Shown piece by piece: positions 5,686 through 45,302 of a stretch of 64,000 nucleotides of DNA. Numbering within the stretch: the stretch's first letter is position 1; the number at the start of each line of letters is the position of its first letter. Origin of the DNA: Halobacteriovorax marinus SJ. Lineage in GTDB: Bacteria; Bdellovibrionota; Bacteriovoracia; Bacteriovoracales; Bacteriovoracaceae. The notes under the pieces were generated by a model. It was not told the origin of the DNA. It did not search any database and saw nothing but the letters and a program-made list of their open reading frames with translations. Location: positions 1,178,001 through 1,242,000 of the forward strand of contig NC_016620.1 of assembly GCF_000210915.2 (NCBI RefSeq). Direction: 5' to 3'. The translations under genes were made by a program, and so were the position numbers.

Positions 5686-6939
5686 ATGCGAAATCTACTA
5701 CTTACGTCTGCCGTTGTCGCTTTTTCACTTCAGGCCCACGCCGTAAAAGCTCCTTATAAGAATAATGAGTCTTTAAATAGAGAGGTTATCTCAAATTATA
5801 GTGATTTAGCTCTACTAAACTATAATGATTCACTTCAAGGTGCAAGAGCACTTAAGAGTGAAATTGCAAAATTCGTTAAGCTTGCTAAGAAAGGTAGCAA
5901 ATTAGCGAGTAAGCAATATGATATCGTTAAAAAGACTTGGTCATTAGAGGCGAGAATGCCTTACGGTCAATCTGAAATTTTTAGATTTTATAATGGTCCA
6001 ATCGACTTTGAACCAATTGATGATGGCGTAACAACTTACCTTGAGTCAATTAACTTTGAAGGTGTTGAAGGACTTATGAATGCATGGCCACTTGATGAGA
6101 TCTATATTGATTATGTTAAAGAAGATTCAACTGCTGGTCTTGTTAATAATAGAAATATTAAATTAACAAAAGACGTTCTTGTTTCAATGAATGAGAGAGA
6201 GGGAGAGAAGAATATCTCTACTGGTTATCACGCGATTGAATTCCTTCTATGGGGACAAGATAGATCAATTGATACTGCTGGACAAAGACCATATACAGAC
6301 TATGTTGATGGTGGAACTGCAAAAAACCAAGATAGAAGAAGAGAGTACCTCTCACTACTAATTGACTTATTAGATGATCACTTATCAACTGTTACTAATC
6401 AGTGGCAAGTTGGTGAGAAGAATTATAGAACAGAATTTTTAAAGAGAGATTCTAATTCAGTTCTTACTGATATTTTCACTTCTATGATTTCAATGGCAGG
6501 TGATGAACTTAAGAGTGAGAGAATTGAAAACGCGTTTCTACTTGAAGATCAAGAAGAAGAGCACTCTTGTTTCTCTGATCAAACGATCAACGATATTTAT
6601 ACAAATGCTTTAGGTGTAAAGAATATTTACTTCGGTGACTATGTAGCTCATAACTCATCAAAGTCAATCAATGGAAAGGGAATCAACGATCTAGTTGCTT
6701 TCGTTAATCCTGAGCTAGACCAAGCGATTACTAAGAAGTTTGATTCACTTTTTAACAATATTAACTTCTTCTATAAGAAGTCTAGAAATGGTCAAGTTCA
6801 AATTGGAAGTATCGAAACTCCATTTGATAGAGCTCTGACTACTAATAAAGTTGAAATTCAAAACATCATTGATGACTTAGGTTCAATCGATGAGCTTCTA
6901 AGAGAAGCTGCGAGTGAGTTAGGTTTAGAGATTGAATAA
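5686..6939 (+). CDS. Imelysin family (peptidase M75-like) iron-regulated protein
   Basis: The imelysin family comprises exported helical proteins of iron-regulated loci (IrpA, ICMP, EfeO relatives); they are thought to bind a metal ion in iron uptake, and peptidase activity is doubtful. The signature GYHAIE (GxHxxE) is at about residues 180-185, followed by FLLWGQD, and the conserved EEHSCFSD block follows at about 285-295. A signal peptide precedes (cleavage after about residue 19, QAHA|VKA). The start is fixed by AGGAGG six bases before the ATG. The stop overlaps the TTG start of the next gene, so the two are coupled. Pairing with a DUF1111 di-heme protein is the common arrangement in other Proteobacteria. 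Confidence 0.9.
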   Translation: MRNLLLTSAVVAFSLQAHAVKAPYKNNESLNREVISNYSDLALLNYNDSLQGARALKSEIAKFVKLAKKGSKLASKQYDIVKKTWSLEARMPYGQSEIFRFYNGPIDFEPIDDGVTTYLESINFEGVEGLMNAWPLDEIYIDYVKEDSTAGLVNNRNIKLTKDVLVSMNEREGEKNISTGYHAIEFLLWGQDRSIDTAGQRPYTDYVDGGTAKNQDRRREYLSLLIDLLDDHLSTVTNQWQVGEKNYRTEFLKRDSNSVLTDIFTSMISMAGDELKSERIENAFLLEDQEEEHSCFSDQTINDIYTNALGVKNIYFGDYVAHNSSKSINGKGINDLVAFVNPELDQAITKKFDSLFNNINFFYKKSRNGQVQIGSIETPFDRALTTNKVEIQNIIDDLGSIDELLREAASELGLEIE

Positions 6940-8251
6940 ATCTTTATACCTTCTCAAAATCTTTCCACTACTTATTGTTTTTCTGATAAGTAGTGGAACT
7001 ACAGCTAGGACCTTGAGCTTTTCTGGTCCTAAAGATTACGCTCGCCTTATTGAGGGCTTAAGTTCTAAAGAGCTTGCTGAATTAAAGGCAGGCTTTTCGC
7101 TTTTTTCAAAACCTTGGGTGGCCGCGCCTTCTTCAACTAGAGTTCGTGATGGACTAGGTCCACACTTCAATGCCACTAGCTGCATGAGTTGTCACGCAAG
7201 GATGGGAAGAGGAAACCCTTATTCAGAAGAAGGTTCTGTTAATCATCCAATTCTCTTTAGAGTTTCTACATCCAATGATTTGTTCTCAGGCCCAGTGCCA
7301 GATCCTAATTATGGTTTACAGCTTCAAATAAATTCGTTGGCAAAGGTTCAGAGAGAATCACAGGTGAGTGCACGCTTTGAGTACTTTACAGGTAGCTTTT
7401 CGGATGGAGAAGTATATGAACTTCGACGAGCGAAGTTTCATTTTACGAAGTTAAACTACGGATCACTAGATAGTAAAACTCATTTCTCTCCTAGGACATC
7501 TCCCCATTTGGCGGGGCTTGGTCTGATTGATCAAATAGATGAAGAAGATATTCTCGCACTAGAAGATCCTGAGGATTTAAATAAAGATGGCATCAGTGGG
7601 AAGGCCAATTTCTCTTGGAGTCCATCACAAAAGAAATTACTCGTAGGACGCTTTGGTCATAAAGCAAATGTTCCAACTTTACTCGATCAAATAGCCGGTG
7701 CTTTCCAAGGAGATATGGGAATTACGAGTACACTCTTTCCAAGCGAAAATTGCTCTGAACTTCAGGCCGACTGTCATGGAATTTTAAATGGTGGTGACCC
7801 TGAAATTAGTGATAGGCACCTAGGTTTCGTACACCTGTTACTTAGCTCTATTGACGCCCCAAAAGTAACTCGCTTAAAGGGCTTTAATAAGGGAAGAGAA
7901 CACTTCTCAAAAATTGGATGCACAAGCTGTCATAGAGCAGAGTTTAAAGTGAAAGATAGAGTGATTAATCCTTACTCTGATTTTCTTCTTCACGACATGG
8001 GAGAAGAGCTGGCCGATAATAGAGAAGACTTTAGTGCTTCAGGTAGAGAGTGGAAGACGCCACCTCTATGGGGGATTGGAAGTCTTAGAAAGGTTAATGG
8101 TCACACTAACTTACTCCACGATGGTAGGGCCCGCTCAGTCGAAGAGGCGATTCTCTGGCATGGGGGAGAGGCCAAGAAATCACGAGAGAGGTACCGCTCT
8201 CTATCTAAAGAAGAGCGCCGCGAACTTCTAAGTTTCATCAATTCGCTCTAG
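6932..8251 (+). CDS. Di-heme oxidoreductase (DUF1111, putative peroxidase/thiol oxidoreductase)
   Basis: The protein carries two heme c motifs, CMSCH at about residue 84 and CTSCH at about 330, in the arrangement of the DHOR family (PF06537). A signal peptide occupies residues 1-26. Conserved family segments such as GRFGHKANVPTL and the C-terminal LLHDGRARSVEEAILWHGGEA are present. Translation is inferred to begin at TTG 6932, overlapping the imelysin stop by eight bases, because no downstream ATG keeps the signal peptide. Function in this family is unproven; the constant partnership with imelysin suggests redox change of iron (or copper) in the periplasm before uptake. Length, 439 residues, is normal. 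Confidence 0.88.
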   Translation: MNKSLYLLKIFPLLIVFLISSGTTARTLSFSGPKDYARLIEGLSSKELAELKAGFSLFSKPWVAAPSSTRVRDGLGPHFNATSCMSCHARMGRGNPYSEEGSVNHPILFRVSTSNDLFSGPVPDPNYGLQLQINSLAKVQRESQVSARFEYFTGSFSDGEVYELRRAKFHFTKLNYGSLDSKTHFSPRTSPHLAGLGLIDQIDEEDILALEDPEDLNKDGISGKANFSWSPSQKKLLVGRFGHKANVPTLLDQIAGAFQGDMGITSTLFPSENCSELQADCHGILNGGDPEISDRHLGFVHLLLSSIDAPKVTRLKGFNKGREHFSKIGCTSCHRAEFKVKDRVINPYSDFLLHDMGEELADNREDFSASGREWKTPPLWGIGSLRKVNGHTNLLHDGRARSVEEAILWHGGEAKKSRERYRSLSKEERRELLSFINSL

Positions 8252-13303: not shown

Positions 13304-13326
13304 GGCACTATTTGGGTCATAGTGCC
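13304..13326 (-). terminator. Terminator of the FecR/CHASE2 operon
   Basis: GGCACTAT and ATAGTGCC form an exact 8-base stem with a 7-base loop, 10 bases past the cyclase stop. On the minus strand it is followed by TTTCATTAATCTTTTATT. Confidence 0.7.
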
Positions 13327-13335
13327 TAGAATTCA

Positions 13336-15567
13336 TTATTTTGATGTTAGTGTGAAGACTCCATCCCAATTCGGAGGAGGTGGAAGTTCCTTAAATTGTT
13401 CACATCTTTCAATATAAATCTTGGAAGGATTTGTTTTTTCTTTTAAGAGAGGAAAGCGCTCAAGTTCTAGCTCAAGTGACTCCTTAAAGCAGGCGAGGGC
13501 CTGATCCCACTCCTGCGCCTTGTAGTGAGAGATACCTTTACTAAAGATTTCTTGAAGTTTAATCAAGAGATCACTCGCGTCTTCTTTGATCTCTAGTATT
13601 TCGTAAGTTGTAACTGGCTCTGACTTCCCAACAACTCTAATCGTATCAAGTTCTCTATAGAGAAATTGCTCGCTTTGACAATCTTCCATTGTAAACTTTG
13701 ATGTCTGTGTGAAGATACCATATTGCTTGGCTGCCTCTTCAAGTCTAGCGGCCAGGTTCACAGAGTCTCCCATCATTGTGTAATTCATTCTAGATGCTGA
13801 ACCCATATTACCCGTAACGATTTCACCGGTATTAATACCGATTCTCATTCTCATTTCATGCACGATCTGTGGCCACTTATCTCCCTCTGAAACCCACTTT
13901 TCTCTAAGAACTAGAAGAGCTCTCTGCATTTTAACAGCAACTCTCAGGGCCCTTGTAGAGTGGTCCTCTAGAGGCATTGGTGCACCAAAGAAGGCTATGA
14001 TGGCATCTCCCTCATACTTGTCGAGCGTTCCTTTCTCTTCAAGGAGAATGTCAGTCATCGCAGTAAGATATTCATTGAGAAGTTCAACGAGTTGTGTGGC
14101 GCTAAGCTTTTCTGAGAAAGTAGAGAAACTTTGGATATCAGTAAAGAAGGCCGTTCTTGTTCCACTATCTCCACCAAGAGAAGGGTGCTGTCCTGTAGAG
14201 TACATTTCGTCGATGAGTTCAGGTGAGATATAGGAACCAAATGCATTCTTTAAGAACGCCTTATCTTTATTTGCGAGGTAGAAGTGGAGGAAAGTATTCC
14301 ACGAGTAACTACAAATAATAGAGAAGAAACAGAAGAAGAGTTTTACTTCATATCCCTGTGGTATGAGATGGTAAGTATCGTAATAATAAATTCCTCCAAT
14401 AATGAAAATAGTTGAGAGTAAATCAAGTATTGGATTACCAAAGAATTGAATAATGAGAATGATTAGTGATCCACCTATGAGGATCGCCCATGAAAGAAAG
14501 GTTGAGTTTTGCTGAGGTTTATAGAAATGACCATTTAACAGCATGTGAGTCATATTCATGTGAAAGTAAACCCCTGGTAACATCGGATCAACAGGAGTGT
14601 GTCTAAGGTCGTAAGCACCATAGGCACTGGCCCCTACAAAGACGATCGTATTATTGAAGATCTCTTTCATATTCTCATCTTCGGGATAGGCCTTCACAAT
14701 ATCAGCAATACTAACTCTTGGAAATTGTCTCTCATTTCCAAACCAGCGAACATTTGCTTCACCTTTGTAATTGAGTTCAATATTTCCTGAAGCCAATTTA
14801 AATTTATAATCTCCTATATTGAGCATTTCTAGAACAGGACTATCTCCCGTATAATCGATATAGGCCTGGAGCCCATAAGATGGCATATATAGAGTGTCTA
14901 TATTTCCAACTAATTGGTAGTGCCTCATGATCCCATCACTATCGGCCTCTACTTGAATATGTCCTAGACTAACGTCTGTGTTTAGAAGTGTTTCTATTGG
15001 CCATACGGCTTTTGATACCTTCTTAGGCTTAAGTTCTATTCCTTCACTATTCTTTGTATCTAAGACAAAGTTATAAAGCTGATCGGGCATCTCTTCAAAG
15101 TGATCAGCTCCCTGAGTATCTAGGGAGTAGGGAAGAATAACTTTATTACCTGGAATCGATTGAAAGTTAACAATCGATTGGGCCATGATGTCATCAACAG
15201 AAGTTTCTCCACAGCTCATACTATTTTCAGCAAAGAAAACGTCGAAGGCTATAACTTTTGCTCCATAGATTCTTAGCTTATCAATGACGTTGGCCCAAGT
15301 TTGTCTTCCTACTGGCCATTGTCCAAGTTCTTTCAGTGAGTAATCATCAATATCTGCCATGACAAGTTTCTTATCAAACTTCTTAGGATCTAGGGTCTGT
15401 CTCATTCTGAAGTCGAAGAAACGATTCTCAAAGAAAGTAGTATAAGAAATTTTCTCTTTTATTCTAGGGTCTTCAATATCTCTCTCTGTAAGTGAGAAGA
15501 AAACACTTAGCGCAGAGAAAGATATAATAATAATGAAGCCTAGGTATTTTATGATTTTTGACAGCAT
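13336..15567 (-). CDS. CHASE2-domain adenylate/guanylate cyclase
   Basis: This membrane receptor is predicted to make a cyclic nucleotide in response to an extracytoplasmic signal. After an N-terminal membrane helix (about 8-26) comes a periplasmic CHASE2 domain to about residue 350, with the typical KLVMADIDDYSLKELGQWP and IVFVGASAYGAYDLR segments. Three closely spaced membrane helices follow (about 360-440), then a class III cyclase catalytic domain: metal-binding Asp in FFTDIQSFS (about 477) and DKYEGDAIIAFFG about 44 residues later. The last ~90 residues look like a short TPR-type helical tail. It is the third gene of the FecR operon, 18 bases after the TPR/barrel gene. ATP versus GTP preference is not settled by eye. 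Confidence 0.92.
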   Translation of the reverse strand: MLSKIIKYLGFIIIISFSALSVFFSLTERDIEDPRIKEKISYTTFFENRFFDFRMRQTLDPKKFDKKLVMADIDDYSLKELGQWPVGRQTWANVIDKLRIYGAKVIAFDVFFAENSMSCGETSVDDIMAQSIVNFQSIPGNKVILPYSLDTQGADHFEEMPDQLYNFVLDTKNSEGIELKPKKVSKAVWPIETLLNTDVSLGHIQVEADSDGIMRHYQLVGNIDTLYMPSYGLQAYIDYTGDSPVLEMLNIGDYKFKLASGNIELNYKGEANVRWFGNERQFPRVSIADIVKAYPEDENMKEIFNNTIVFVGASAYGAYDLRHTPVDPMLPGVYFHMNMTHMLLNGHFYKPQQNSTFLSWAILIGGSLIILIIQFFGNPILDLLSTIFIIGGIYYYDTYHLIPQGYEVKLFFCFFSIICSYSWNTFLHFYLANKDKAFLKNAFGSYISPELIDEMYSTGQHPSLGGDSGTRTAFFTDIQSFSTFSEKLSATQLVELLNEYLTAMTDILLEEKGTLDKYEGDAIIAFFGAPMPLEDHSTRALRVAVKMQRALLVLREKWVSEGDKWPQIVHEMRMRIGINTGEIVTGNMGSASRMNYTMMGDSVNLAARLEEAAKQYGIFTQTSKFTMEDCQSEQFLYRELDTIRVVGKSEPVTTYEILEIKEDASDLLIKLQEIFSKGISHYKAQEWDQALACFKESLELELERFPLLKEKTNPSKIYIERCEQFKELPPPPNWDGVFTLTSK

Positions 15568-15585
15568 AAAAAACCTTTCACCTAT

Positions 15586-17169
15586 TTAGAAGGTGTATTT
15601 AAGTGATGAAGATGTTACGTGCTTTGTATAGTCGTAATCAGCTTTTAGTGAAGTGTTCTTTGTATAATTATAACCAACAGAGAATTTCAATTTATCATTG
15701 ATTTTCTTAGTGAGTTTTATACTTGGAGTTATTGTTTTCTCTGTTCCTCTTACTGAACTTTCATTTGCATCAGTATAGCTAACAAAAGTTACAGATGCTC
15801 CCACATGGAGAGTGATTTTTGGAAGAATATTTGGCTTGATATAATCAACTCTAAGCAGTGTCGAGTTGGTTGCGTTCTTCGGGTTATTATAAGTATCTAA
15901 TGAGTCATAAGAGAGGAGAAACATATAAATTGATGAACTCGAAGTTAAATAGAGTTGATCAACTGAAAAAGACTTCGTCTTACTAAAGAGTGTACTTGTA
16001 TGAGAGCTTAAATCTTTATATTTAAATTTTAGCGATGTATCACCCTTAGAGAAGAACTTAAACTTCTCACCAATTGTATAAGTCGTAGAACGTGAGTAGA
16101 AGGCCTTCCTCTGCATCGCCGTATTATACTTACTATTGTAGTTGTAATCGATATTAAAGAATAACGATGCTGGCTTATTAAATGCCTTGTGCTCAAAAGA
16201 AGTATTTAGCGATGGTGAGATATCATAATTATCTTCCGACTTTACAGTCTCAGCATCTCTATTGGTATGGCTCTTAAGACTCATATTGAGCTCAGGGTTT
16301 ATAATAAACCTCTTATTTACTATAAAGTCATAACCTGCACGCATTTTAGTTTTAAAAACAAAAGACTCCTCTCTAGACGCTGCTGAAGAGGGGAGATCAT
16401 TTGTAAGAGAAATATTACTATCGTGATTTAAGTCCTGAGTGAAAGAAAGGTTCCATCTCTTTGATGAAATTCTCTTACCGTTATATAGAATATTTGGATC
16501 TAGCCCAAATTCTCTTTCGATTTCTTTCTTTCTAGATTTAATCTCTCTAGCAAGAGAAGAAGTCGTATCGACTTCATAGGCCTTATCCATCTGAGGAAGA
16601 ACGAATTGCTTTACGAGCCTCTGCGTATCTTCATTCTCTCTGGCCATTCCCAGTAAGACTTCACCAATTTGAAAACGTGCAACTTGCTTAAGTGCAGTAT
16701 CGGCCGTGTCTGAGTTTAGTATTTGAGTATAATAGGCCTTAGCTGTTTTATTCTCTTCTAGGATTTGTGATACGTGAGCGACATAGTAAATAGAAGAGTC
16801 TTTCTTATAGTTAAGATCTGCTGATTTTTTAAAAGCGATTCTTGCTTTGGTTAAATCATTATTGGCATAGAGTGCTTGTCCGTACTCATAGTAAATATCT
16901 TCGGCTACACTTTTGGCCTTGATGGCCTCAATAAAGTAGGGGATTGCCTTATCATAATTTTGTAATCGATTGTGGGAAAGTGCCATAAGATAATTTCTCG
17001 TGGCACGATTGGATTTTGTTTCTTTTAAAGTTGAAAGGCCCTCTAAGACTTGAGCGTAGGAGCCCTTTTGAAATAATTCTAATGATGATTTTATAACTCT
17101 ACTTTCTTTTGCAGAAATATTAGAAGTTAAAATAAAAGTAGATAATATAAGTGCACAGCTCTTTTTCAT
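15586..17169 (-). CDS. Exported TPR plus outer-membrane beta-barrel protein
   Basis: A signal peptide (to about residue 20, ISA|KES) leads into TPR-like helical repeats at about 25-190 (for example NRLQNYDKAIPYFIEAIKA and YYEYGQALYANNDLTKARIA). From about residue 230 to the end the sequence alternates polar and hydrophobic residues in many short strands with aromatic girdles and ends in Phe (SLKYTF), the sign of an outer-membrane barrel. A TPR domain before a barrel resembles the Slam/DUF560 architecture, but I cannot show homology. It sits between a FecR-domain protein and a CHASE2 cyclase, so it may form the outer-membrane part of a sensing device. Role unknown. Confidence 0.75.
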   Translation of the reverse strand: MKKSCALILSTFILTSNISAKESRVIKSSLELFQKGSYAQVLEGLSTLKETKSNRATRNYLMALSHNRLQNYDKAIPYFIEAIKAKSVAEDIYYEYGQALYANNDLTKARIAFKKSADLNYKKDSSIYYVAHVSQILEENKTAKAYYTQILNSDTADTALKQVARFQIGEVLLGMARENEDTQRLVKQFVLPQMDKAYEVDTTSSLAREIKSRKKEIEREFGLDPNILYNGKRISSKRWNLSFTQDLNHDSNISLTNDLPSSAASREESFVFKTKMRAGYDFIVNKRFIINPELNMSLKSHTNRDAETVKSEDNYDISPSLNTSFEHKAFNKPASLFFNIDYNYNSKYNTAMQRKAFYSRSTTYTIGEKFKFFSKGDTSLKFKYKDLSSHTSTLFSKTKSFSVDQLYLTSSSSIYMFLLSYDSLDTYNNPKNATNSTLLRVDYIKPNILPKITLHVGASVTFVSYTDANESSVRGTEKTITPSIKLTKKINDKLKFSVGYNYTKNTSLKADYDYTKHVTSSSLKYTF

Positions 17170-17232
17170 TGGGCCAAATCCATTTAACCTAAATTATTAA
17201 TATTAGTGACTTATATTATAACTAAATTTCCT

Positions 17233-18699
17233 CTAATTAGAATTATTAATATTAAATCTTACCCGAGTACTATTGTTGAGTACTTCGTTTCTTTCATCTT
17301 CTGCATCTTCAATTGTCTCTTCAATTGTATCTTGCGCATCTTCAACGATCTCATCTAATTCTGACTGATCTACACCTGCAAAGTCTGCAGGGGAGTCAGA
17401 AGGTGCATCACTACCGCCAAAGTCGTCACCTCCACCAATATCATCAGCAATCTCTGGTTCAATTGGCTTATCAAGTGGCGCTAGTTCTGGGGGAGCATTT
17501 CCTCCTCCATCTACACCACCTTCAGATGGTGCAGGTCCTGATCCATCAACACTTGCAGGTGCTCTGTCTGGACTTTCTGTAGGAACAAATTTCCCATCAT
17601 CAGTCAGAGTGTAATTTGTATTTTCATAGGCACCAGTGTCTGGATTGAATCCTCCAAAATCCGCTGGTGGAATATAAGTCTCTGTTGCGGCATCAAATAC
17701 TGATCCTGCTGGAGGAGCAATATATTGTGCTGTTGCAACGTCAATATATCCACCTGCTGGAGGAGCAATTTCACCCGTTGAAGCATTTACCGAACCTTCA
17801 GGTGGAGGAGCATTCTCAGCACTAGCAGCTTTTTCTTTTTCTACTTTATCTACAACAGCAATTGTTGCACTTTTTCCTAGTACCTTTTCAACTTGCTCTG
17901 CAACTTTTGCTTTATTTGAGAAACCTTTTGCATCTACCCCTGGAGGGATAACACTTCTAAATTTCTTCTTCGGTGCTTTCGTTGCAGCAGCTTGGTCTGG
18001 AGCTTCTTTAGAACCATCGTTTGACTTCATTGACTCTAATTGACCAGGGTTGATCTTTACAGGAGTCGTTGCTCTTGATGTTTTCCCTGGAGATACACCT
18101 GAGAATTGACCCTTTGTCACAATAACGGCTTTATCACTTGAAACAACTTTTTCAAGAGCTGCCTGTGAAACTTGGATATTTCTAATATTCTCTGTGATCT
18201 GTGCCATAGCAACTGCACCAGAGAATGTTACAAGAGCAGTATTTTCGTTTACCGGGTTAAAGGTAACCATAAAGTCTGTCCCTCTAACACCCATGGCAGC
18301 TGTTTTCGTTTTAATGAATAGCTTTGATTTATCTTTATTTTTATTGTCGAGGTAGTTCTTAGTCACCTTAGATCTAAGAGAACCTTTCATAAGAGTAATA
18401 ATACCTGCGTCTTTCTTTGGGAATTTACTAATGGCCATTTCTGATTTTGGACCTAAGTTCATTTGTGATTTATCTATAAAGAGAAATTTTACAAAAGACT
18501 TTGGCTCAGTCTTAACTACAAAACCTTCTTGTACCCAAGAGCCTTTCTTTAGCTTTGTTTCTTCTTTTGTCTTTGGGTTAACGGCAGTAACACTTCCTTT
18601 TAGAATGATTGCCTTAGCGACACCGTCACTTGCATGTGCCGGAATGCTCATGGAGATTACAATAGCTGTTGTTAGTAGAAGTTTTCTCAAAAAGTTCAT
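17233..18699 (-). CDS. FecR-domain protein with proline-rich repeat tail
   Basis: A signal peptide (residues 1-23, PAHA|SDG) precedes a FecR domain at about 30-160, recognisable from KLKKGSWVQEGFVVKT, KSEMAISKF and KTKTAAMGVRGTDFMV. FecR domains of this free type are periplasmic and often partner CHASE2 cyclases and TPR proteins. From about residue 290 a degenerate repeat of about 16 residues appears (cores IAPPAGGYIDVATAQY and IAPPAGSVFDAATETY, then a weaker copy), followed by an acidic tail rich in Asp, Gly, Pro and Glu. It is the first gene of the three-gene operon and 488 residues long. The tail may be a flexible stalk in the periplasm. Confidence 0.85.
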   Translation of the reverse strand: MNFLRKLLLTTAIVISMSIPAHASDGVAKAIILKGSVTAVNPKTKEETKLKKGSWVQEGFVVKTEPKSFVKFLFIDKSQMNLGPKSEMAISKFPKKDAGIITLMKGSLRSKVTKNYLDNKNKDKSKLFIKTKTAAMGVRGTDFMVTFNPVNENTALVTFSGAVAMAQITENIRNIQVSQAALEKVVSSDKAVIVTKGQFSGVSPGKTSRATTPVKINPGQLESMKSNDGSKEAPDQAAATKAPKKKFRSVIPPGVDAKGFSNKAKVAEQVEKVLGKSATIAVVDKVEKEKAASAENAPPPEGSVNASTGEIAPPAGGYIDVATAQYIAPPAGSVFDAATETYIPPADFGGFNPDTGAYENTNYTLTDDGKFVPTESPDRAPASVDGSGPAPSEGGVDGGGNAPPELAPLDKPIEPEIADDIGGGDDFGGSDAPSDSPADFAGVDQSELDEIVEDAQDTIEETIEDAEDERNEVLNNSTRVRFNINNSN

Positions 18700-35400: not shown

Positions 35401-36294
35401 ATGATCCCATTTGCAAGTTTGGCAGATAAGAGAATGGCCGAGAAGATCGCTCAAGAAGGACGTTCTCAAAATATTTATATTGAAATAAAGAATGTGAATA
35501 ATGAATATATTCTCGAAGTAGATAAAGAAGAAAATATAGAAATTGCTACTGATATCTATCGAGTGATGATGGGATTACCTAAGCAGTTTACTCCATCAAA
35601 AGAGTGGAGTGAGATTGCAGCAGTTCCAATGGGTTTTGCTACTAAAGCTATTATAGTATTTTGTATTGCTGTCTACGCTCTCGATGCCTTAAAGATTATG
35701 CCAGAGTTATATTCAGTGATGAAGTTCTCATCTGATCCAAAACTTGGTCTTAATGAAATTGTCCAAGGTCAATTTTGGAGAGCGATTACTCCAATTTTTC
35801 TTCACTTTGGTTTAATGCATATCCTCTTTAATATGCTTTGGATGAAAGACTTGGGAAAATTAGTTGAAGTGGAGAGATCATCTAACTTTCTATTATTATT
35901 TATCTTAGTGGTGGGCTCTATCTCTAACTTCAGTCAGTACCTTATCTCAGGTCCAAATTTTGGAGGGATGAGTGGAGTCGTCTATGGTCTCCTTGGCTAC
36001 CTATGGATGTATAAGCGCTTTAATAAAGAATCAAAATATTCTCTTCCAAAGAGTGATGTTATCCTTATGGTTGGCTGGTTCTTCTTATGCTTAATGGGTG
36101 TCTTTGTTTTCTCTATCGCCAATATGGCCCACGCTCTGGGGTTGAGTTTAGGAATGTTTGCTGGAATATTCTATGGACAATACGACACGGGAAGGACCGA
36201 TATGAAAAACTCTCTTCTTTTTACATCTTTGGCAATTCTCTTTAGTGGACTAACACTTGGAGTAGAACTTTTTAAATTATCACAAATTCAGTAG
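35401..36294 (+). CDS. GlpG-like rhomboid intramembrane serine protease
   Basis: Rhomboids cleave membrane proteins within or near the bilayer. The first ~65 residues form a soluble domain like the N-terminal domain of E. coli GlpG (MIPFASLADKRMAEKIAQEG). Six membrane helices follow. HFGLMHILFNMLWM at about 138-151 holds the conserved His/Asn block; the nucleophile Ser191 lies in GGMSGVVYG and the catalytic His244 in NMAHALGL, spaced 53 apart as Ser201 and His254 are in E. coli GlpG. Length 297 is near that of GlpG (276). Substrate unknown. The gene has no clear partner: its neighbours are a small protein and a giant secreted protein. Confidence 0.93.
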   Translation: MIPFASLADKRMAEKIAQEGRSQNIYIEIKNVNNEYILEVDKEENIEIATDIYRVMMGLPKQFTPSKEWSEIAAVPMGFATKAIIVFCIAVYALDALKIMPELYSVMKFSSDPKLGLNEIVQGQFWRAITPIFLHFGLMHILFNMLWMKDLGKLVEVERSSNFLLLFILVVGSISNFSQYLISGPNFGGMSGVVYGLLGYLWMYKRFNKESKYSLPKSDVILMVGWFFLCLMGVFVFSIANMAHALGLSLGMFAGIFYGQYDTGRTDMKNSLLFTSLAILFSGLTLGVELFKLSQIQ

Positions 36295-36393: not shown

Positions 36394-39300
36394 TTGAAAA
36401 AGAATCTATTCTTTATTCTATTGATTTTTATTTGCGGGCAATTGGCAATTGCTCACGAATTAATTTATGAATCAAAGAGTTCTGACAATCAACATGCGAC
36501 AGCTGTTTATCACGATAAAGAAAGTGGTAAGATCGTTGTTCAAAAATTCGATTTCTCTAATTCATCAGTGAATGGAGAAAGTTTTAAATTCCCAGAGAGT
36601 GTAAACTCATTTGCAAGTGTATTCTATCCCCTTGAGCAATTAAGACCTAATATTAGACAAGAAATGGAAAGCATTGATCTCAATCAATCTAGTCCAGACA
36701 TTCAAGTAGAGCTAGAGAAGATAACTGGGGCGAGTAGAGAAAATGCAAGAGAAGTGATGCTGGCCCTGAATCAAAAGATCTATAATCAAAGATCGAATGT
36801 CGTCTTAAGTACAGGTGAAGGTCTTAAGAAAAGTCTCGCAGTAGTCTCTAGTTCTAATGGTAGACTAACTTTGGCCAAGGGAAGAAACCGTAAAATGACT
36901 GTCCCTGAAAATATCTCTTTCCCAAGAGATATCGTGAATAGATTATCTTCTAGGAAGTCGAGAGATCTTGATATTAGTTCACCTGGAAAGCTCTCCAGAG
37001 TTCTATCCTCTTTTAATTCTCTTATGCGAGAGTATGAATTTGATAGAAGTGTAAGAGATGATCTTCTTGAGAGATTATCAGCTCATAAGAGAGTTCTAGA
37101 TTCTAAAATAGCAAAGATGAGTCTTGTAAAATCTATCAATAAAGACGGTGAGAAGTATGATCTCTTTATGAATTTAGAAGATGGCTCTTTCTATCTTCGT
37201 CGAACAAAGGGTGATCGAATTGTTGAAGATGATTTCTATCCATTAAATGATGACAAAAACTTAGAAGACTTAAAATCAAAGTTAGAAAGATATGGTCTTT
37301 ATAATAAGAATGAGTTCGATAATACTTTTAAAGATTTCTACGTACAAAGTTGTGAACAGCTAGAAGGGCTCTATGGAATCCTTCCAGAGTTAGATGAAAA
37401 TATAAGTAGTATCATGAAGGTTACTGATAGATTGTGGGGAAGCTATCTTGAAAGTGCCGTCTCAAATAAGCCGATTGTCCTCGCCGATGGAAGTATGGTT
37501 CTTTCTATTTCCGCGCTGAATGAATCGCATAATGTGAAGGTAAACTATAATAGTGATGGAAGTATAAGTGATCTAAGTTTTGTTAATGAAGCTAAGGCTC
37601 AGAGAGGAAACCTAGAGATTGTAGAAGTTATAGAAAACGGAAAGAAGATTTTCAAAATTAAATTAAAGTCAGATGAAGGGGATATAGATCAATTTATATT
37701 TGATACTGAAACTGATAGCAGTGGAAAAAGTAAGCTCTCTGTTTATGTGAGAGGTGCTTCTACTGGTGATACTTTATATGATAAGAATGATTATCCTCTT
37801 GTGTTGAGTTCAAATAAGGTAATTTCTGTAGGAAATCGAGTACAACTTTCTAAGACACGTGTTAATCCATATCCTTCTAGTATATCTAAAGTAGATGGTG
37901 GTGGTGTTAAGTCATTTATCTTTAATAACTTCTTTAGCTTAGAGGATAAGAGAGAAAAATTAGCAGATGAAGTTAGGACTGCTGTTGGTTCACAGATTGA
38001 TTCAATCAATAAAGATGGTAATGAATATCTAAATCCTAATGAGATAAATAGTATCGTGTTAGATATAGTTCGCGATGTTGAAAAAGATATTCCGGAGTTA
38101 GAAGCAGATATTTCTAGGTTAACAGCTAAGACCTATGAACATGCCTATAAGAATTTTGTAAATAATATTGTTCCAAAGATGATTAAGGATTTAGTACCTG
38201 GAGAGAGTGATGAGTTCTATTCAGAGATTGCTCAATCTTCTATGGTTGATTTTCATAAATGCTTAGAAGCCGCATCTAGCAGGTCTAATGAAAAAGCTGC
38301 TGAAGCATGTATGAATGCCTATATGAAAGAGGCTCCTGTGAAGATAGGAGAGTCTATCTTAATAGATCAAATCAAAAGTAATAATCAAAGTGTTATTTTA
38401 GATACGGTTGTAAGTGAATACAATAAATGTATAAAAGAAAATTATGACAACACTTTAGATATGGGTTCTATTAAAGGCTGTATTTATAAGGCGATTTTTA
38501 CATCGGTGGATAAGGATATTGAAAAGGTTGTTTCTTTCTCACTCAGTGAAATGGAGAGAGACTATAAGAATCAAGGCAAAGATATTACACTTAGAGTAGA
38601 TTCATCAACTCTTGCCAAGGCGAAAGAAAATCTTAGAAAGTGTTATCAAGATAGTGACTTTATTAGTCCACGTTTCTTCAATGATAATTATAATCAACAG
38701 AAATTAAATACTCTTGAAGTAGATGAATTTAAAAATTCTCTATTTAAATGTACCTCAAGAATTGAACAAGTCGTTGGGCGTGAAGTTTCGGGAATTGTTC
38801 TCGATAATGAACTCTCTTCAATGGGAATTGAAGGGACTGAAAGAGAGAGTATTAAAGAGAGAACGATTTCAAATGGATACGATAATTGTATTTCCATACA
38901 AAGTGCACAGGCCAACCTTAGGGAAGAACGTGGAGAGTTCTATAAAGTTGAGGCAGCAAAATGTACACAGTTAGTTACTCTCACTGCTACTAATGAAGTA
39001 ATAACAAAGACATTAAAAGAAAAGCTAGGAACTGAGTTATGGGATGATCTGGCAACGAGAGATCAAGCTCCACATTTAAAGTGTTTTGAAGATCTAAAGT
39101 CGAAGGCCAGGGACCAACTTATCGAAAGTAATGACTCTATTGATTTTGAGACATCTTCAGCAGATTGCTTAAAAGAGAGTGTCATTTGGGCGTCTTTCTA
39201 TTTAGGTAAGACAGAGCTAGCTAAAATATTTGAAAGTGATCCCCTCTATAGAAAAGTACAATTGAATGAAGAGAGGAAGAGTTATTATGCATCTTTGATT

Positions 39301-41907
39301 CAATCTTGTTTTAAGGAAAAACTTAAGGAGTACTCAGAGATTAATAAGATTTCATCTTCTTTAGATAAGATCCAAGATCAGTGTAGTGTTGAGTTGATAA
39401 TGAGTGAGAGTGCAAAAGATGATATTCTCTCTCCAATCGTTACGGGAATGCTCGAAGATAGTGGAGTTGACGCTAAAATTATCGCTGATACTAAAGATAC
39501 AATTGTTAGTAAAATGAGCGCTAATGTTGCCAATGCCCTGAAAGGGAAGAGCTTATCTTTAGAAGAAGTGATAACTGAGTTTAAGAAAATTCAAGGTGAA
39601 GCAACTTATCTTGTTGCTGATAGAACTGTTGATCAATATGTAAGAGATATGATCGATCCTGAGCGAGCTGATGCCGTTTCTGCGTCTCTACGAGAAAAAG
39701 TCTTTAATGGAGAATATGACTTTAGAAGTAAAATACTTTCAGCAAATGGAAGTGATGAATTAAATAGAACTGTCGATGAGATGACTGAAATCGTTGCAAT
39801 TAACTTAACCGAAGAGGCATCTCGCTCAGAGGGAATGAAGCTCTTAGAGAAGGGAATTCTTAAAAATGAAAACGATGTAGAAAAACTAGCGCGCGGTGGT
39901 CGTAGTTCTATGGAGCAGTGTCTGAGAGAGAGACCTGCTAATGCAGTACTTAAAGAATATTTAGATAGCTGTGTATTAAAAGTAAAAACGGAAGTAACGT
40001 ACGATGTTTTTGATGATCAGCTTAAGTCTATCCTCTTTGAAGGTGATTTTGCTGGCTCATTTAGCGCCAGTGAAAAGCAAGAGCTATATAGTAAGTTCAT
40101 CAATGAGGACTTAAAGTCAGATATATCTAAGGCCTATGCTGACGATGGGCTAAATGAATTTCAAAATAAATTCACACTAAGAGCGACTTCAGCTATTGGT
40201 GAAAGAGTTATTAAAAAGTCTGTTCTAGATATCTATATGGGGAAATTAACTCCCAATGATGCCAATTATCAAGCAACACTCTCACAAGGAGAAGTTGTTG
40301 CTAGCGTGGCCAATACTGAACTTCAAAATTGTCTTTCAAGTCAAGATGGCAAAGAAATTATAGATACTGATAGCTGCATTGATAGGGCAAGACTTAAAGC
40401 AACAGAGTTAGTTTTTAAAGATAAGATAACACCATTTGTTTCACTACTGAGTAGTAACAAGAATGTTCAAAATCAATTTGTAGACTCTCAGATATCTACA
40501 TTTAAAAAATGTACGCAAGATTCCAAGTCTGCAGCTAAAGAATATACTGATGCTGTTAATAGCTGCTTATTAGAAAGTATTTTCAATATGGTCCAGGATC
40601 TTGTCGTGGATGCTAGTAAATCTACGGATTTCTTAGCAGACCTCTCTGAAAGAGACTTAGGGGCCCTAAAGGGTTGTATTGAAGATAGCAAGAGAGAGTT
40701 GGTAAAGTCTAATCGGGACTTCCAAGGAAAAGAAGCTCTTAGAAGTGAGCTTTATTCCAAAATTGAGAAAGGTGAAGAGTTCTGGCTACACTACTTTAAT
40801 GAGTCTCCAAGTGAGGACTCTCAAAAGAAAGTTGATTGGGCGATTGCTCTAGTTCAAGAGTGCGGTATTAGTTCAGCTGTTCCAAGCGTACTTCGAAGCT
40901 TAAGAATGTCTTCTCGAATTAAAGAGAATTTAGATATGAATCGCTCGCAAGAGCTCTATACTATCAATGCAATTTCTTCCCTAGAAAATTTTGCAAAAGA
41001 GAGCTTTGAAGATGGTAATTGGCTAACTTTAGAAAGCGTCGAAGAAAGCGGTGAAGGTCGTGGTGAAGATAGCTCAAGTGGAGAATTAGAGCTAAAGACG
41101 ATTGACGAATATATGCGCGAGTATATGCCAATGGTTGGCGAGTACTTAAAGAAATTGCATGACTATGACTCTGCTGGATCTAAGGAACTGCTAGATAAGT
41201 TCTTACAAGAAGTTAGATCTGAGATAAAAAATAAGAAGAAACTTTCTTTGGAAGATTTGAAAGCTCTACTCATGAAGTCTGATCTCATGGATTTAATTAT
41301 TGAATCTGAAGTCGCTAATTTTGTTATGAAAGAAGCGAGAGCTCCTCTTGCAGAACAAGGTGTAGGTGAGCAAACAATACTTCAACTTGGATCAAAGGAA
41401 GTTATAGGTAAGCTCTTTGATTCGACAAGAGGAAGGAAAATCATTTCGCAGATTAAGTCTGATTTTATTTCTCCTATGTTACAAGGTGAAGGTGGAAAGG
41501 AAATTCCTGAGAGCATTGTCACTGATGTCAAAAAGCTTCTCGTGAGTGATACTAAGAATGGTGGGTTTGTAGAAACATTGGCCGGGGCCATTGTACAAAA
41601 TAAACTAGAAGAGAAGAGGCCTAAGAATTTCGCCACTTCTGGTATTGCATCTGTCCTAGGTTACGACTCCGCAGATTTTAAGTGGAGTAATCTAAGATCG
41701 CGAAGGGCCTCTGGAGTTAGCGATTCAGAGCAACCTGTTCAACAGGCAATGGAATACTTTGGAGATCAAATTTTACTACCGATGTTAATGAAGGAAGATC
41801 TAGGCTCTAGAGTTGAAAAAGGAATCTTTAGCAATACTAAGATTGATATAATGCAAGAGAGACAAGATAAATTCTCTGAAATGGTTGAAGAGATAATGGA
41901 TTTGTAA
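36394..41907 (+). CDS. Giant exported protein with ten cysteine-pair modules (1837 residues)
   Basis: I do not recognise the family. A signal peptide (residues 1-20, QLAIA|HEL) follows a TTG start. Residues ~25-600 are mixed, with one isolated Cys near 322. From about 620 to 1490 the protein shows a loose tandem pattern of helical modules, each with two cysteines: 623/639, 679/696, 750/786, 832/857, 897/925, 972/997, 1176/1193, 1313/1328, 1373/1391 and 1428/1490. The first Cys is often followed by Leu, Ile, Tyr or Thr and preceded by Lys (KCLEAA, KCIKEN, KCYQDS, KCTQDS), the second by a helical Leu/Ile/Lys stretch. These are probably disulfide-stapled helical hairpins in the periplasm or outside. 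The last 350 residues have no cysteines and end in a charged helix. Single gene with its own terminator. Confidence 0.8.
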   Translation: MKKNLFFILLIFICGQLAIAHELIYESKSSDNQHATAVYHDKESGKIVVQKFDFSNSSVNGESFKFPESVNSFASVFYPLEQLRPNIRQEMESIDLNQSSPDIQVELEKITGASRENAREVMLALNQKIYNQRSNVVLSTGEGLKKSLAVVSSSNGRLTLAKGRNRKMTVPENISFPRDIVNRLSSRKSRDLDISSPGKLSRVLSSFNSLMREYEFDRSVRDDLLERLSAHKRVLDSKIAKMSLVKSINKDGEKYDLFMNLEDGSFYLRRTKGDRIVEDDFYPLNDDKNLEDLKSKLERYGLYNKNEFDNTFKDFYVQSCEQLEGLYGILPELDENISSIMKVTDRLWGSYLESAVSNKPIVLADGSMVLSISALNESHNVKVNYNSDGSISDLSFVNEAKAQRGNLEIVEVIENGKKIFKIKLKSDEGDIDQFIFDTETDSSGKSKLSVYVRGASTGDTLYDKNDYPLVLSSNKVISVGNRVQLSKTRVNPYPSSISKVDGGGVKSFIFNNFFSLEDKREKLADEVRTAVGSQIDSINKDGNEYLNPNEINSIVLDIVRDVEKDIPELEADISRLTAKTYEHAYKNFVNNIVPKMIKDLVPGESDEFYSEIAQSSMVDFHKCLEAASSRSNEKAAEACMNAYMKEAPVKIGESILIDQIKSNNQSVILDTVVSEYNKCIKENYDNTLDMGSIKGCIYKAIFTSVDKDIEKVVSFSLSEMERDYKNQGKDITLRVDSSTLAKAKENLRKCYQDSDFISPRFFNDNYNQQKLNTLEVDEFKNSLFKCTSRIEQVVGREVSGIVLDNELSSMGIEGTERESIKERTISNGYDNCISIQSAQANLREERGEFYKVEAAKCTQLVTLTATNEVITKTLKEKLGTELWDDLATRDQAPHLKCFEDLKSKARDQLIESNDSIDFETSSADCLKESVIWASFYLGKTELAKIFESDPLYRKVQLNEERKSYYASLIQSCFKEKLKEYSEINKISSSLDKIQDQCSVELIMSESAKDDILSPIVTGMLEDSGVDAKIIADTKDTIVSKMSANVANALKGKSLSLEEVITEFKKIQGEATYLVADRTVDQYVRDMIDPERADAVSASLREKVFNGEYDFRSKILSANGSDELNRTVDEMTEIVAINLTEEASRSEGMKLLEKGILKNENDVEKLARGGRSSMEQCLRERPANAVLKEYLDSCVLKVKTEVTYDVFDDQLKSILFEGDFAGSFSASEKQELYSKFINEDLKSDISKAYADDGLNEFQNKFTLRATSAIGERVIKKSVLDIYMGKLTPNDANYQATLSQGEVVASVANTELQNCLSSQDGKEIIDTDSCIDRARLKATELVFKDKITPFVSLLSSNKNVQNQFVDSQISTFKKCTQDSKSAAKEYTDAVNSCLLESIFNMVQDLVVDASKSTDFLADLSERDLGALKGCIEDSKRELVKSNRDFQGKEALRSELYSKIEKGEEFWLHYFNESPSEDSQKKVDWAIALVQECGISSAVPSVLRSLRMSSRIKENLDMNRSQELYTINAISSLENFAKESFEDGNWLTLESVEESGEGRGEDSSSGELELKTIDEYMREYMPMVGEYLKKLHDYDSAGSKELLDKFLQEVRSEIKNKKKLSLEDLKALLMKSDLMDLIIESEVANFVMKEARAPLAEQGVGEQTILQLGSKEVIGKLFDSTRGRKIISQIKSDFISPMLQGEGGKEIPESIVTDVKKLLVSDTKNGGFVETLAGAIVQNKLEEKRPKNFATSGIASVLGYDSADFKWSNLRSRRASGVSDSEQPVQQAMEYFGDQILLPMLMKEDLGSRVEKGIFSNTKIDIMQERQDKFSEMVEEIMDL

Positions 41908-43690: not shown

Positions 43691-43724
43691 AATCGGCTCT
43701 AGTCTTTTATTTAATTACTTATGT

Positions 43725-43730
43725 TATACT
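43725..43730 (+). promoter_or_regulatory. Candidate -10 box (TATACT) of the small secreted-protein gene
   Basis: TATACT, 32 bases before the ATG at 43763. It implies transcription from about 43737, which excludes the in-frame ATG at 43721. No clear -35 hexamer. Confidence 0.45.
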
Positions 43731-43762
43731 TAATGAAATTCTTTAAAAATGCAAAGGTTATA

Positions 43763-44146
43763 ATGAAGAATATCGTAGGCTTTTTACTCATATTTTTAAT
43801 TTCATTTAGCTCTCATTCTCAGACGGCACAAAAGGCTCAGGAGATGCTAAATAAAGAGGAGAGAGATGCGACTTTAAGAAGGAGATTAGAGCCAAGAATA
43901 AGTGATAAGTACTATCTTGGACGTTTTCTCATTTACGACTGTGAAGGTCGACACTTTGCCTGTGTGAATTATCCAAGTTTCTTTAACTGCCAAGAGAGAA
44001 GAGAAAACGATAAGGAAAATAAGGAAGTTTACTTCTCATGCGCACCTTTAAAGCAATATGAGACGCTGAAAGATTGTACGCAAGCCTACTTGAACTACAT
44101 CTACCGCAGAACCAATAAATCCTTTTGTATTAATAAAATCTTTTAA
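43763..44146 (+). CDS. Small secreted cysteine-containing protein (127 residues)
   Basis: I do not recognise it. The start at 43763 (MKNIVGFLLIFLISF, AAAGG before it) gives a signal peptide cleaved near SHSQ|TAQ; upstream in-frame ATGs at 43721 and 43733 lie at or before the promoter. The mature part is basic and has six cysteines (in IYDCEG, FACVN, FFNCQE, FSCAP, KDCTQ and SFCIN), an even number that suggests three disulfides. The C-terminus overlaps the convergent acetyltransferase gene by four bases. It could be a secreted or periplasmic effector. Confidence 0.65.
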   Translation: MKNIVGFLLIFLISFSSHSQTAQKAQEMLNKEERDATLRRRLEPRISDKYYLGRFLIYDCEGRHFACVNYPSFFNCQERRENDKENKEVYFSCAPLKQYETLKDCTQAYLNYIYRRTNKSFCINKIF

Positions 44147-44669: not shown

Positions 44670-45302
44670 TTAGTAAGTACTTGAAATTCTAAAAAGGTTC
44701 TCCATAGCAAGCTGTGAAAGTGCCTTGGAGAAGAAGGAAAATAGGGTATTTGGTATACCAGTGTGGTTGCCTTGCCAATGGGCGGTTGTGTAGAAGAGGC
44801 ATCTCTTCTTGTAATCAACGGCAGTGATTTTACCTTTTAAATTGATGAGAAAGCCCTTATCAAAAATAAAATCATAGCTTCCCGCTTTCTTTATTCGAGG
44901 AATTTTAAAATCTAGAATCATATTAAAGGGCATGAGCGCTGAGGAGAGTTTAAAGTGAACTCTCTCATTTTCTTCGTTGTAAGAACTAGATTTAATATAG
45001 CCTATATGGTCTTTGTATGACTCATAGTGTGAGAGTTTTTTTAGTGCAAAGCGACAGCTTTTCTTATGAAGTCCTGCAATATAGAAGTCGAGAATTTGTT
45101 TTTTTTGACCCTTGTCTCCACTGCTTCTGACTTCGGACTTTGTGTGAATCTCACCAGATAATATTTTTTTCCAGACTGATTCACCAACCGATTTTTCGAT
45201 AGTTAAACTATCAATGACGCTTGCTGACGGGGGGATTGACTTGGCGTGGGTCACTGAAATAAGGGCTAATATAGTGAAAATATATTGTTTTATGTAACGC
45301 AT
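44670..45302 (-). CDS. Exported protein, possibly START/SRPBCC-like
   Basis: A signal peptide (to about residue 20, VTHA|KSI) and AAAAGG before the ATG. The mature part has alternating strands and a C-terminal helix (SFFSKALSQLAMENLFRISSTY), with KAGSYDFIFDKGFLINLKGKITAVD in the middle, a layout like polyketide-cyclase/START (SRPBCC) ligand-binding folds. I cannot confirm the family by eye. Two cysteines (about 78 and 167). It is divergent from the topoisomerase operon and 89 bases upstream of the acetyltransferase on the same strand. Confidence 0.6.
   Translation of the reverse strand: MRYIKQYIFTILALISVTHAKSIPPSASVIDSLTIEKSVGESVWKKILSGEIHTKSEVRSSGDKGQKKQILDFYIAGLHKKSCRFALKKLSHYESYKDHIGYIKSSSYNEENERVHFKLSSALMPFNMILDFKIPRIKKAGSYDFIFDKGFLINLKGKITAVDYKKRCLFYTTAHWQGNHTGIPNTLFSFFSKALSQLAMENLFRISSTY

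Follow-up and report, generated by a model that had tools for sequence, protein, structure and literature searches.

The open reading frame considered here lies in a 64,000-nucleotide stretch (the window) of the marine predatory bacterium Halobacteriovorax marinus SJ, whose genome consists of 3.44 Mb and a second contig of 1973 bases; the window lies in the former. It encodes a protein of 1837 amino acids (the giant protein; Table 1). The predicted signal peptide has no lipobox, and the cysteine within it (C14) is not conserved in orthologs. No strongly hydrophobic or transmembrane stretch was found beyond the signal peptide in the whole protein. Within the gene, DNA-level repeats were limited to short, chance-like matches. 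A search of the literature for expression or localisation data on the gene found none.

The genomic context was compared across 17 ortholog loci. As far as the contigs reach, and with minor gains and losses, the gene order is common to them: suf genes, rrf2, (a fatty acid hydroxylase), rhomboid, giant, argS, a small exported protein, GNAT, an exported 210-aa protein, parE and parC. The neighbours are mainly housekeeping genes and provide no functional clue. The rhomboid protease gene is co-directional with, and directly upstream of, the giant gene at 14 of the 17 loci, usually at a distance of 66-116 nt, and two of the other loci are cut by contig ends. A functional link between the two genes is possible. 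A rhombosortase-type link was considered and dropped, because the giant protein has no C-terminal hydrophobic segment.

Table 1. Features of the giant gene and its surroundings. Positions are those of the window unless a related locus (L) is named; numbers in the last column that follow 'res.' are residues of the giant protein.
Feature	Position	Strand	Remarks
Rhomboid protease gene	35401-36294	+	PF01694, E 1.8e-25
Giant protein ORF	36394-41907	+	TTG start, 1837 aa, Halobacteriovorax
Signal peptide	36394-36453	+	res. 1-20 (MKKNLFFILLIFICGQLAIA/H), predicted Sec/SPase I, from sequence
N-terminal beta-rich region	36454-37833	+	res. 21-480, AlphaFold2 model A2
Lone invariant Cys320	37351-37353	+	low-confidence loop, pLDDT < 50 at A2 300-310
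All-helical, solenoid-like region	37903-40998	+	res. 504-1535, ten Cys pairs; AlphaFold2 models A2 and A3
Cys pair 1 (623/639)	38260-38310	+	hairpin; invariant; level across turn
Cys pair 2 (679/696)	38428-38481	+	spacing 17-39; invariant; level across turn
Cys pair 3 (750/786)	38641-38751	+	loop with predicted small beta hairpin; invariant; level
Cys pair 4 (832/857)	38887-38964	+	spacing 16-50; invariant; level
Cys pair 5 (897/925)	39082-39168	+	spacing 28-65; invariant; level
Cys pair 6 (972/997)	39307-39384	+	spacing 25 in all; invariant; level
Duplicated unit, copy 1	39715-40008	+	res. 1108-1205; pair 7 (1176/1193) at 39919-39972
Duplicated unit, copy 2	40105-40413	+	res. 1238-1340; pair 8 (1313/1328) at 40330-40377
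Cys pair 9 (1373/1391)	40510-40566	+	invariant; level across turn
Cys pair 10 (1428/1490)	40675-40863	+	invariant; two short helices between
C-terminal helical domain	41083-41904	+	res. 1564-1837, motif around DTKNGGFVETLAGAIVQ; profile matches
Small exported 141-aa protein	43721-44146		about 6 Cys in relatives; without Pfam family; kept in neighbourhood
Exported 210-aa protein	44670-45302		without Pfam family; kept in neighbourhood
Regular relatives	L104:6658-10332; L117:6669-10172

The giant protein contains 22 cysteines: C14, C320 and 20 that fall between residues 623 and 1490 (window 38260-40863). An earlier reading made from the sequence only had described ten consecutive cysteine pairs in this region and near absence of cysteine elsewhere; positions and pairs agree exactly, and C14 and C320 are the only cysteines outside it. 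The same reading put the two cysteines of a pair mostly 15-28 residues apart, which is so for eight of the ten, pair 3 (36) and pair 10 (62) being wider. That short and long gaps alternate in this way is unlikely to be due to chance (p = 0.0009, permutation), and the KC and CL/CI neighbours that had been pointed out are indeed enriched: lysine precedes cysteine at 7 of 20 positions (binomial p 0.001), leucine or isoleucine follows it at 10 of 20 (p 0.0004), and one or the other context is present at 15.

Searches found orthologs of the giant protein solely in the same taxonomic family. The ortholog alignment comprised 20 sequences with 20-57% identity to the window protein, most of them at about 20%, and outside the cysteines the protein evolves fast. 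Nevertheless, all 20 paired cysteines are invariant wherever a contig covers them (19-20 sequences per position), and C320 is kept in 18 of 18 covering orthologs. No further mature cysteine is common to the 20 aligned sequences. C320 makes the mature total odd (21). The spacings between pairs are near-constant among the orthologs (40, 49-54, 45-56, 38-42, 47-48, 45 and 34-37), and two longer spacers likewise vary little. Within pairs, some spacings are fixed (16, 36 and 25) and others range widely (17-39, 16-50, 28-65, 11-35 and 26-72). Near-constant spacing between pairs combined with variable spacing within them is what would be expected if a staple closed the foot of each hairpin and left its loop free to vary.

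The structure was predicted with AlphaFold2 from ortholog alignments as two overlapping models, A2 (residues 20-1110; pLDDT 83.7, pTM 0.65) and A3 (residues 990-1837; pLDDT 82.7, pTM 0.60). As the pTM values are just 0.60-0.65, the overall shape of the protein is uncertain. In A2, residues 21-480 form approximately four-stranded sheets with helices inserted, and at least the first three of these N-terminal modules are repeat-like (W22-71 resembles W136-181 with P 90.5, and W142-164 resembles W250-272 with P 81). From residue 504 the predicted fold is helix-only. There, the cysteines of pairs 1-9 are placed on consecutive long helices, level with each other across one turn and at a similar distance from it. 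Nine of the ten pairs are level in this sense, against a null mean of 2.6; none of 20,000 random placements reached nine, and sliding the cysteine pattern along the model left six or fewer pairs level. In pair 10, two short helices lie between the cysteines, and a simple hairpin is not formed. A shifted pairing (639-679, 696-750 and so on) was rejected, as it fits the helix ends less well and leaves cysteines unpaired after the losses observed in relatives.

Structure prediction was one of the checks proposed with the sequence-only reading, and its outcome favours the idea of stapled helical hairpins: for pairs 1-9, disulfide-stapled hairpins are strongly supported as a prediction, while pair 10 departs from it. 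The cysteine pairs very probably staple the helical hairpins of a long scaffold. This scaffold may take the form of a solenoid or rod.

The other proposed check, profile self-alignment (hhalign), likewise came out in favour of the reading, within limits. Residues 1108-1205 match residues 1238-1340 with P 97.2 and E 3e-11 (P 95.5 with the cysteines masked), with pairs 7 and 8 in register. Weaker self-matches link pairs 4/8, 7/9 and 1/8. A repeat profile built from relatives with regular cysteine arrays (L104, L117, L118, L119 and L103) recognised pairs 1, 4, 7 and 8 with P 88-95 and pairs 3 and 9 with P 69, controls remaining below 11. When its cysteines were masked, just pair 1 (35) and pair 3 (23) exceeded 20. 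Much of the single-hairpin repeat signal thus comes from the cysteines themselves, because masking them removes most matches; the internal duplication stands, and the weaker repeats fade. When the window protein was aligned off register to the regular relatives, cysteine fell on cysteine in 12 of 12 and 14 of 14 cases, the first of a pair on the first and the second on the second.

Profile comparison placed the giant protein in a wider, apparently unnamed superfamily, for which membership was defined by profile homology in the helical region and the C-terminal domain; both were found in the giant protein. Its helical region matches five other subfamilies (E 1e-13 to 1e-39) and, with the cysteines masked, still matches two (E 2e-20 and 1e-21). 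The C-terminal domain matches four groups (E 1e-9 to 3e-28), including a 17-Cys group (3e-28), an SH3 type (1e-21) and the regular type (6e-18), and is common to most of the superfamily. The N-terminal part differs among groups, and an SH3_3 domain is present in one of them; in one subfamily member (L036:10248-14804), a bacterial SH3 domain (PF08239, E 2.3e-9) immediately precedes the C-terminal domain. The regular relatives have 9-12 cysteine pairs that recur about every 62 residues, and the type occurs throughout genus g14 and in three other families of the phylum. With the first profile, members were found in 46 of 129 genomes of the family.

The host itself encodes a paralog of 1325 aa with 17 cysteines (L096:8185-12159). 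This protein and the regular relatives share with the giant protein, by profile, the helical cysteine-pair region and the C-terminal domain, but are shorter, have another N-terminal part, and have regular arrays or fewer pairs. No names were found for them either. The paralog is flanked by exported proteins of 564 aa (6364-8055) and 1589 aa (13318-18084) without Pfam families, and similar clusters are present in relatives (L097, L041 and L102). Most of the 17-Cys paralogs likewise have one unpaired cysteine.

Cysteine loss in the superfamily has mostly affected both members of a pair: the 17-Cys subfamily is without pair 1, L039 without pair 3 and L108 without pair 9, and pair 8 has gone, again as a pair, from several groups. 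As the groups are clades, these losses represent few independent events. Only one clear singleton loss was seen (C750 in L122), and the few other mismatches seem to stem from shifted alignment of short loops. The pairwise losses speak against the cysteines being ligands of a metal or cofactor, or redox-active, rather than structural disulfides. Cysteines are often ligands, and the invariant C320 is unpaired; however, the giant protein has no CxxC, CxxCH or four-ligand clusters (metal binding was rejected on this ground), and its pairs, with 15-62 residues from one cysteine to the other, are predicted to sit on adjacent helices; the protein is exported, and its host encodes a DsbB adjoining a DsbA-like protein, plus further DsbA-like proteins. 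A ligand function is accordingly very improbable.

Searches of Pfam, NCBIfam, PHROGs and PDB sequences with the giant protein produced no match, so the layout corresponds to no named family in these libraries, as had been claimed. The principle of the stapled helical hairpin, however, is already known, with precedents in the Hcp/Sel1-like proteins and the CagY repeats. The Hcp proteins are far shorter than the giant protein. HcpB and HcpC of Helicobacter (Sel1-like) are extracytoplasmic and consist of tandem, disulfide-bridged alpha/alpha repeats (PMC2581425), a plan that the predicted helices and level cysteine pairs of the giant protein fit. The Sel1 repeat is about 36 residues long, in contrast to the period of about 62 in the regular relatives; hmmscan of the giant protein against Pfam-A at E 0.1 found no family, and hence no Sel1 repeat, and no Sel1-type family was found in seven relatives at E 1. 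The same principle has been discussed for CagY of Helicobacter pylori, which, like the giant protein, is exported and very large and has helical modules in tandem, with cysteines at regular places that can form disulfides; the cysteines tested there favoured multimers (PMC2581425). The CagY motifs are 38-39 residues long and belong to a type IV secretion component, and neither Pfam nor NCBIfam gave any match of the giant protein to a CagY-type family.

Structural comparison raised the possibility of a membrane-coat-like protein, in which an alpha-solenoid comes after an N-terminal beta-propeller; nucleoporins, clathrin and the PVC proteins have this plan, which in the present case would be exported and stapled. 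In the model of residues 20-1110, a beta-rich region precedes the helical repeats, and nuclear pore chains head its Foldseek list against the PDB (E 7.7e-6, 3.4e-4 and 8.7e-4), but with TM-scores of only 0.09-0.13. Using VIA-align, single N-terminal sheets aligned to individual blades of clathrin and nuclear-pore propellers (Z 4.1-4.5); no whole propeller was matched, the best Z (5.5) being to a PUR repeat, and residues 339-465 of A2 are similar to the single-layer sheet of OspA (Z 4.9). The PVC proteins are large and have a beta-rich N-terminal part and then a helical repeat domain; one of them, Gemmata gp4978, was found between the membranes (PMC2799638). They belong to another phylum, and closure of the beta-rich sheets predicted here into a propeller is hypothetical; a cysteine-pair pattern is not described for the PVC proteins in the parts of the paper covered (PMC2799638), and the likeness is one of architecture. 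A membrane-coat-like protein is an improbable reading. Its fuller form, in which an exported propeller and stapled alpha-solenoid would constitute a periplasmic or surface coat outside the PVC group, its copies linked via Cys320 as a lineage-specific envelope part of Bacteriovoracaceae predators, is a long shot. For residues 990-1837, the best Foldseek E was 0.75, and an absent match of this kind is no proof of a new fold. The top VIA-align scores of the C-terminal model (Z 7.1) were to repeat and designed proteins and do not discriminate among helical repeats.

The explanation that we favour, with a probability of roughly 0.6, is that the giant protein is an exported, disulfide-stapled helical scaffold with an envelope role: a periplasmic or surface alpha-solenoid flanked by a beta-rich region at the N-terminus and a conserved helical domain at the C-terminus. 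The signal peptide suggests export by the Sec route, after which the cysteines would be oxidised in the periplasm by the DsbA/DsbB-like system for which the host has the genes. Residues ~504-1535 would fold into a long antiparallel run of helices, and in pairs 1-9 a disulfide placed just beneath the turn would tie the end of one helix to the beginning of the one that follows. Such staples could tolerate loop insertions and would give a stiff, protease-resistant helical solenoid, with the beta-rich region and the C-terminal domain as likely binding or anchoring ends. C320, in its flexible loop, would probably link the protein by an intermolecular disulfide to another copy of itself or to a partner. 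The most likely role is that of a core, vertically inherited structural part of the cell envelope, in the periplasm or at the outer surface, of Bacteriovoracaceae-like bacteria.

The disulfides could also be real in a protein that is not a scaffold of the cell's own envelope: one that acts on prey as an adhesin or effector, or one that forms a compact set of several bundles. The protein is exported, very large, fast-evolving outside its cysteines and found in a predatory genus, and helical adhesin and vinculin-like bundles (Z 5, non-discriminating) are among the VIA-align rows of the C-terminal model. Against this, the giant gene is syntenic and vertically inherited at 17 of 17 ortholog loci, the superfamily extends to MAGs of unknown lifestyle, and searches of the giant protein revealed neither a secretion nor an adhesin domain. 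Such a role is rather unlikely, and the envelope scaffold is preferred.

Predatory bacteria encode many lineage-specific exported proteins without an assigned role. The results sketch a superfamily of large exported proteins, seemingly without a name, from Bacteriovoracaceae-like bacteria. Over hundreds of residues these proteins keep their cysteine pairs, whereas the rest of the sequence has mostly drifted. Should the bonds be real, the proteins would contain a long natural array with one disulfide per helical hairpin repeat, would provide a design of use for stiff rods outside the cytoplasm, and would be a testable candidate for a component of envelope architecture in predatory bacteria.
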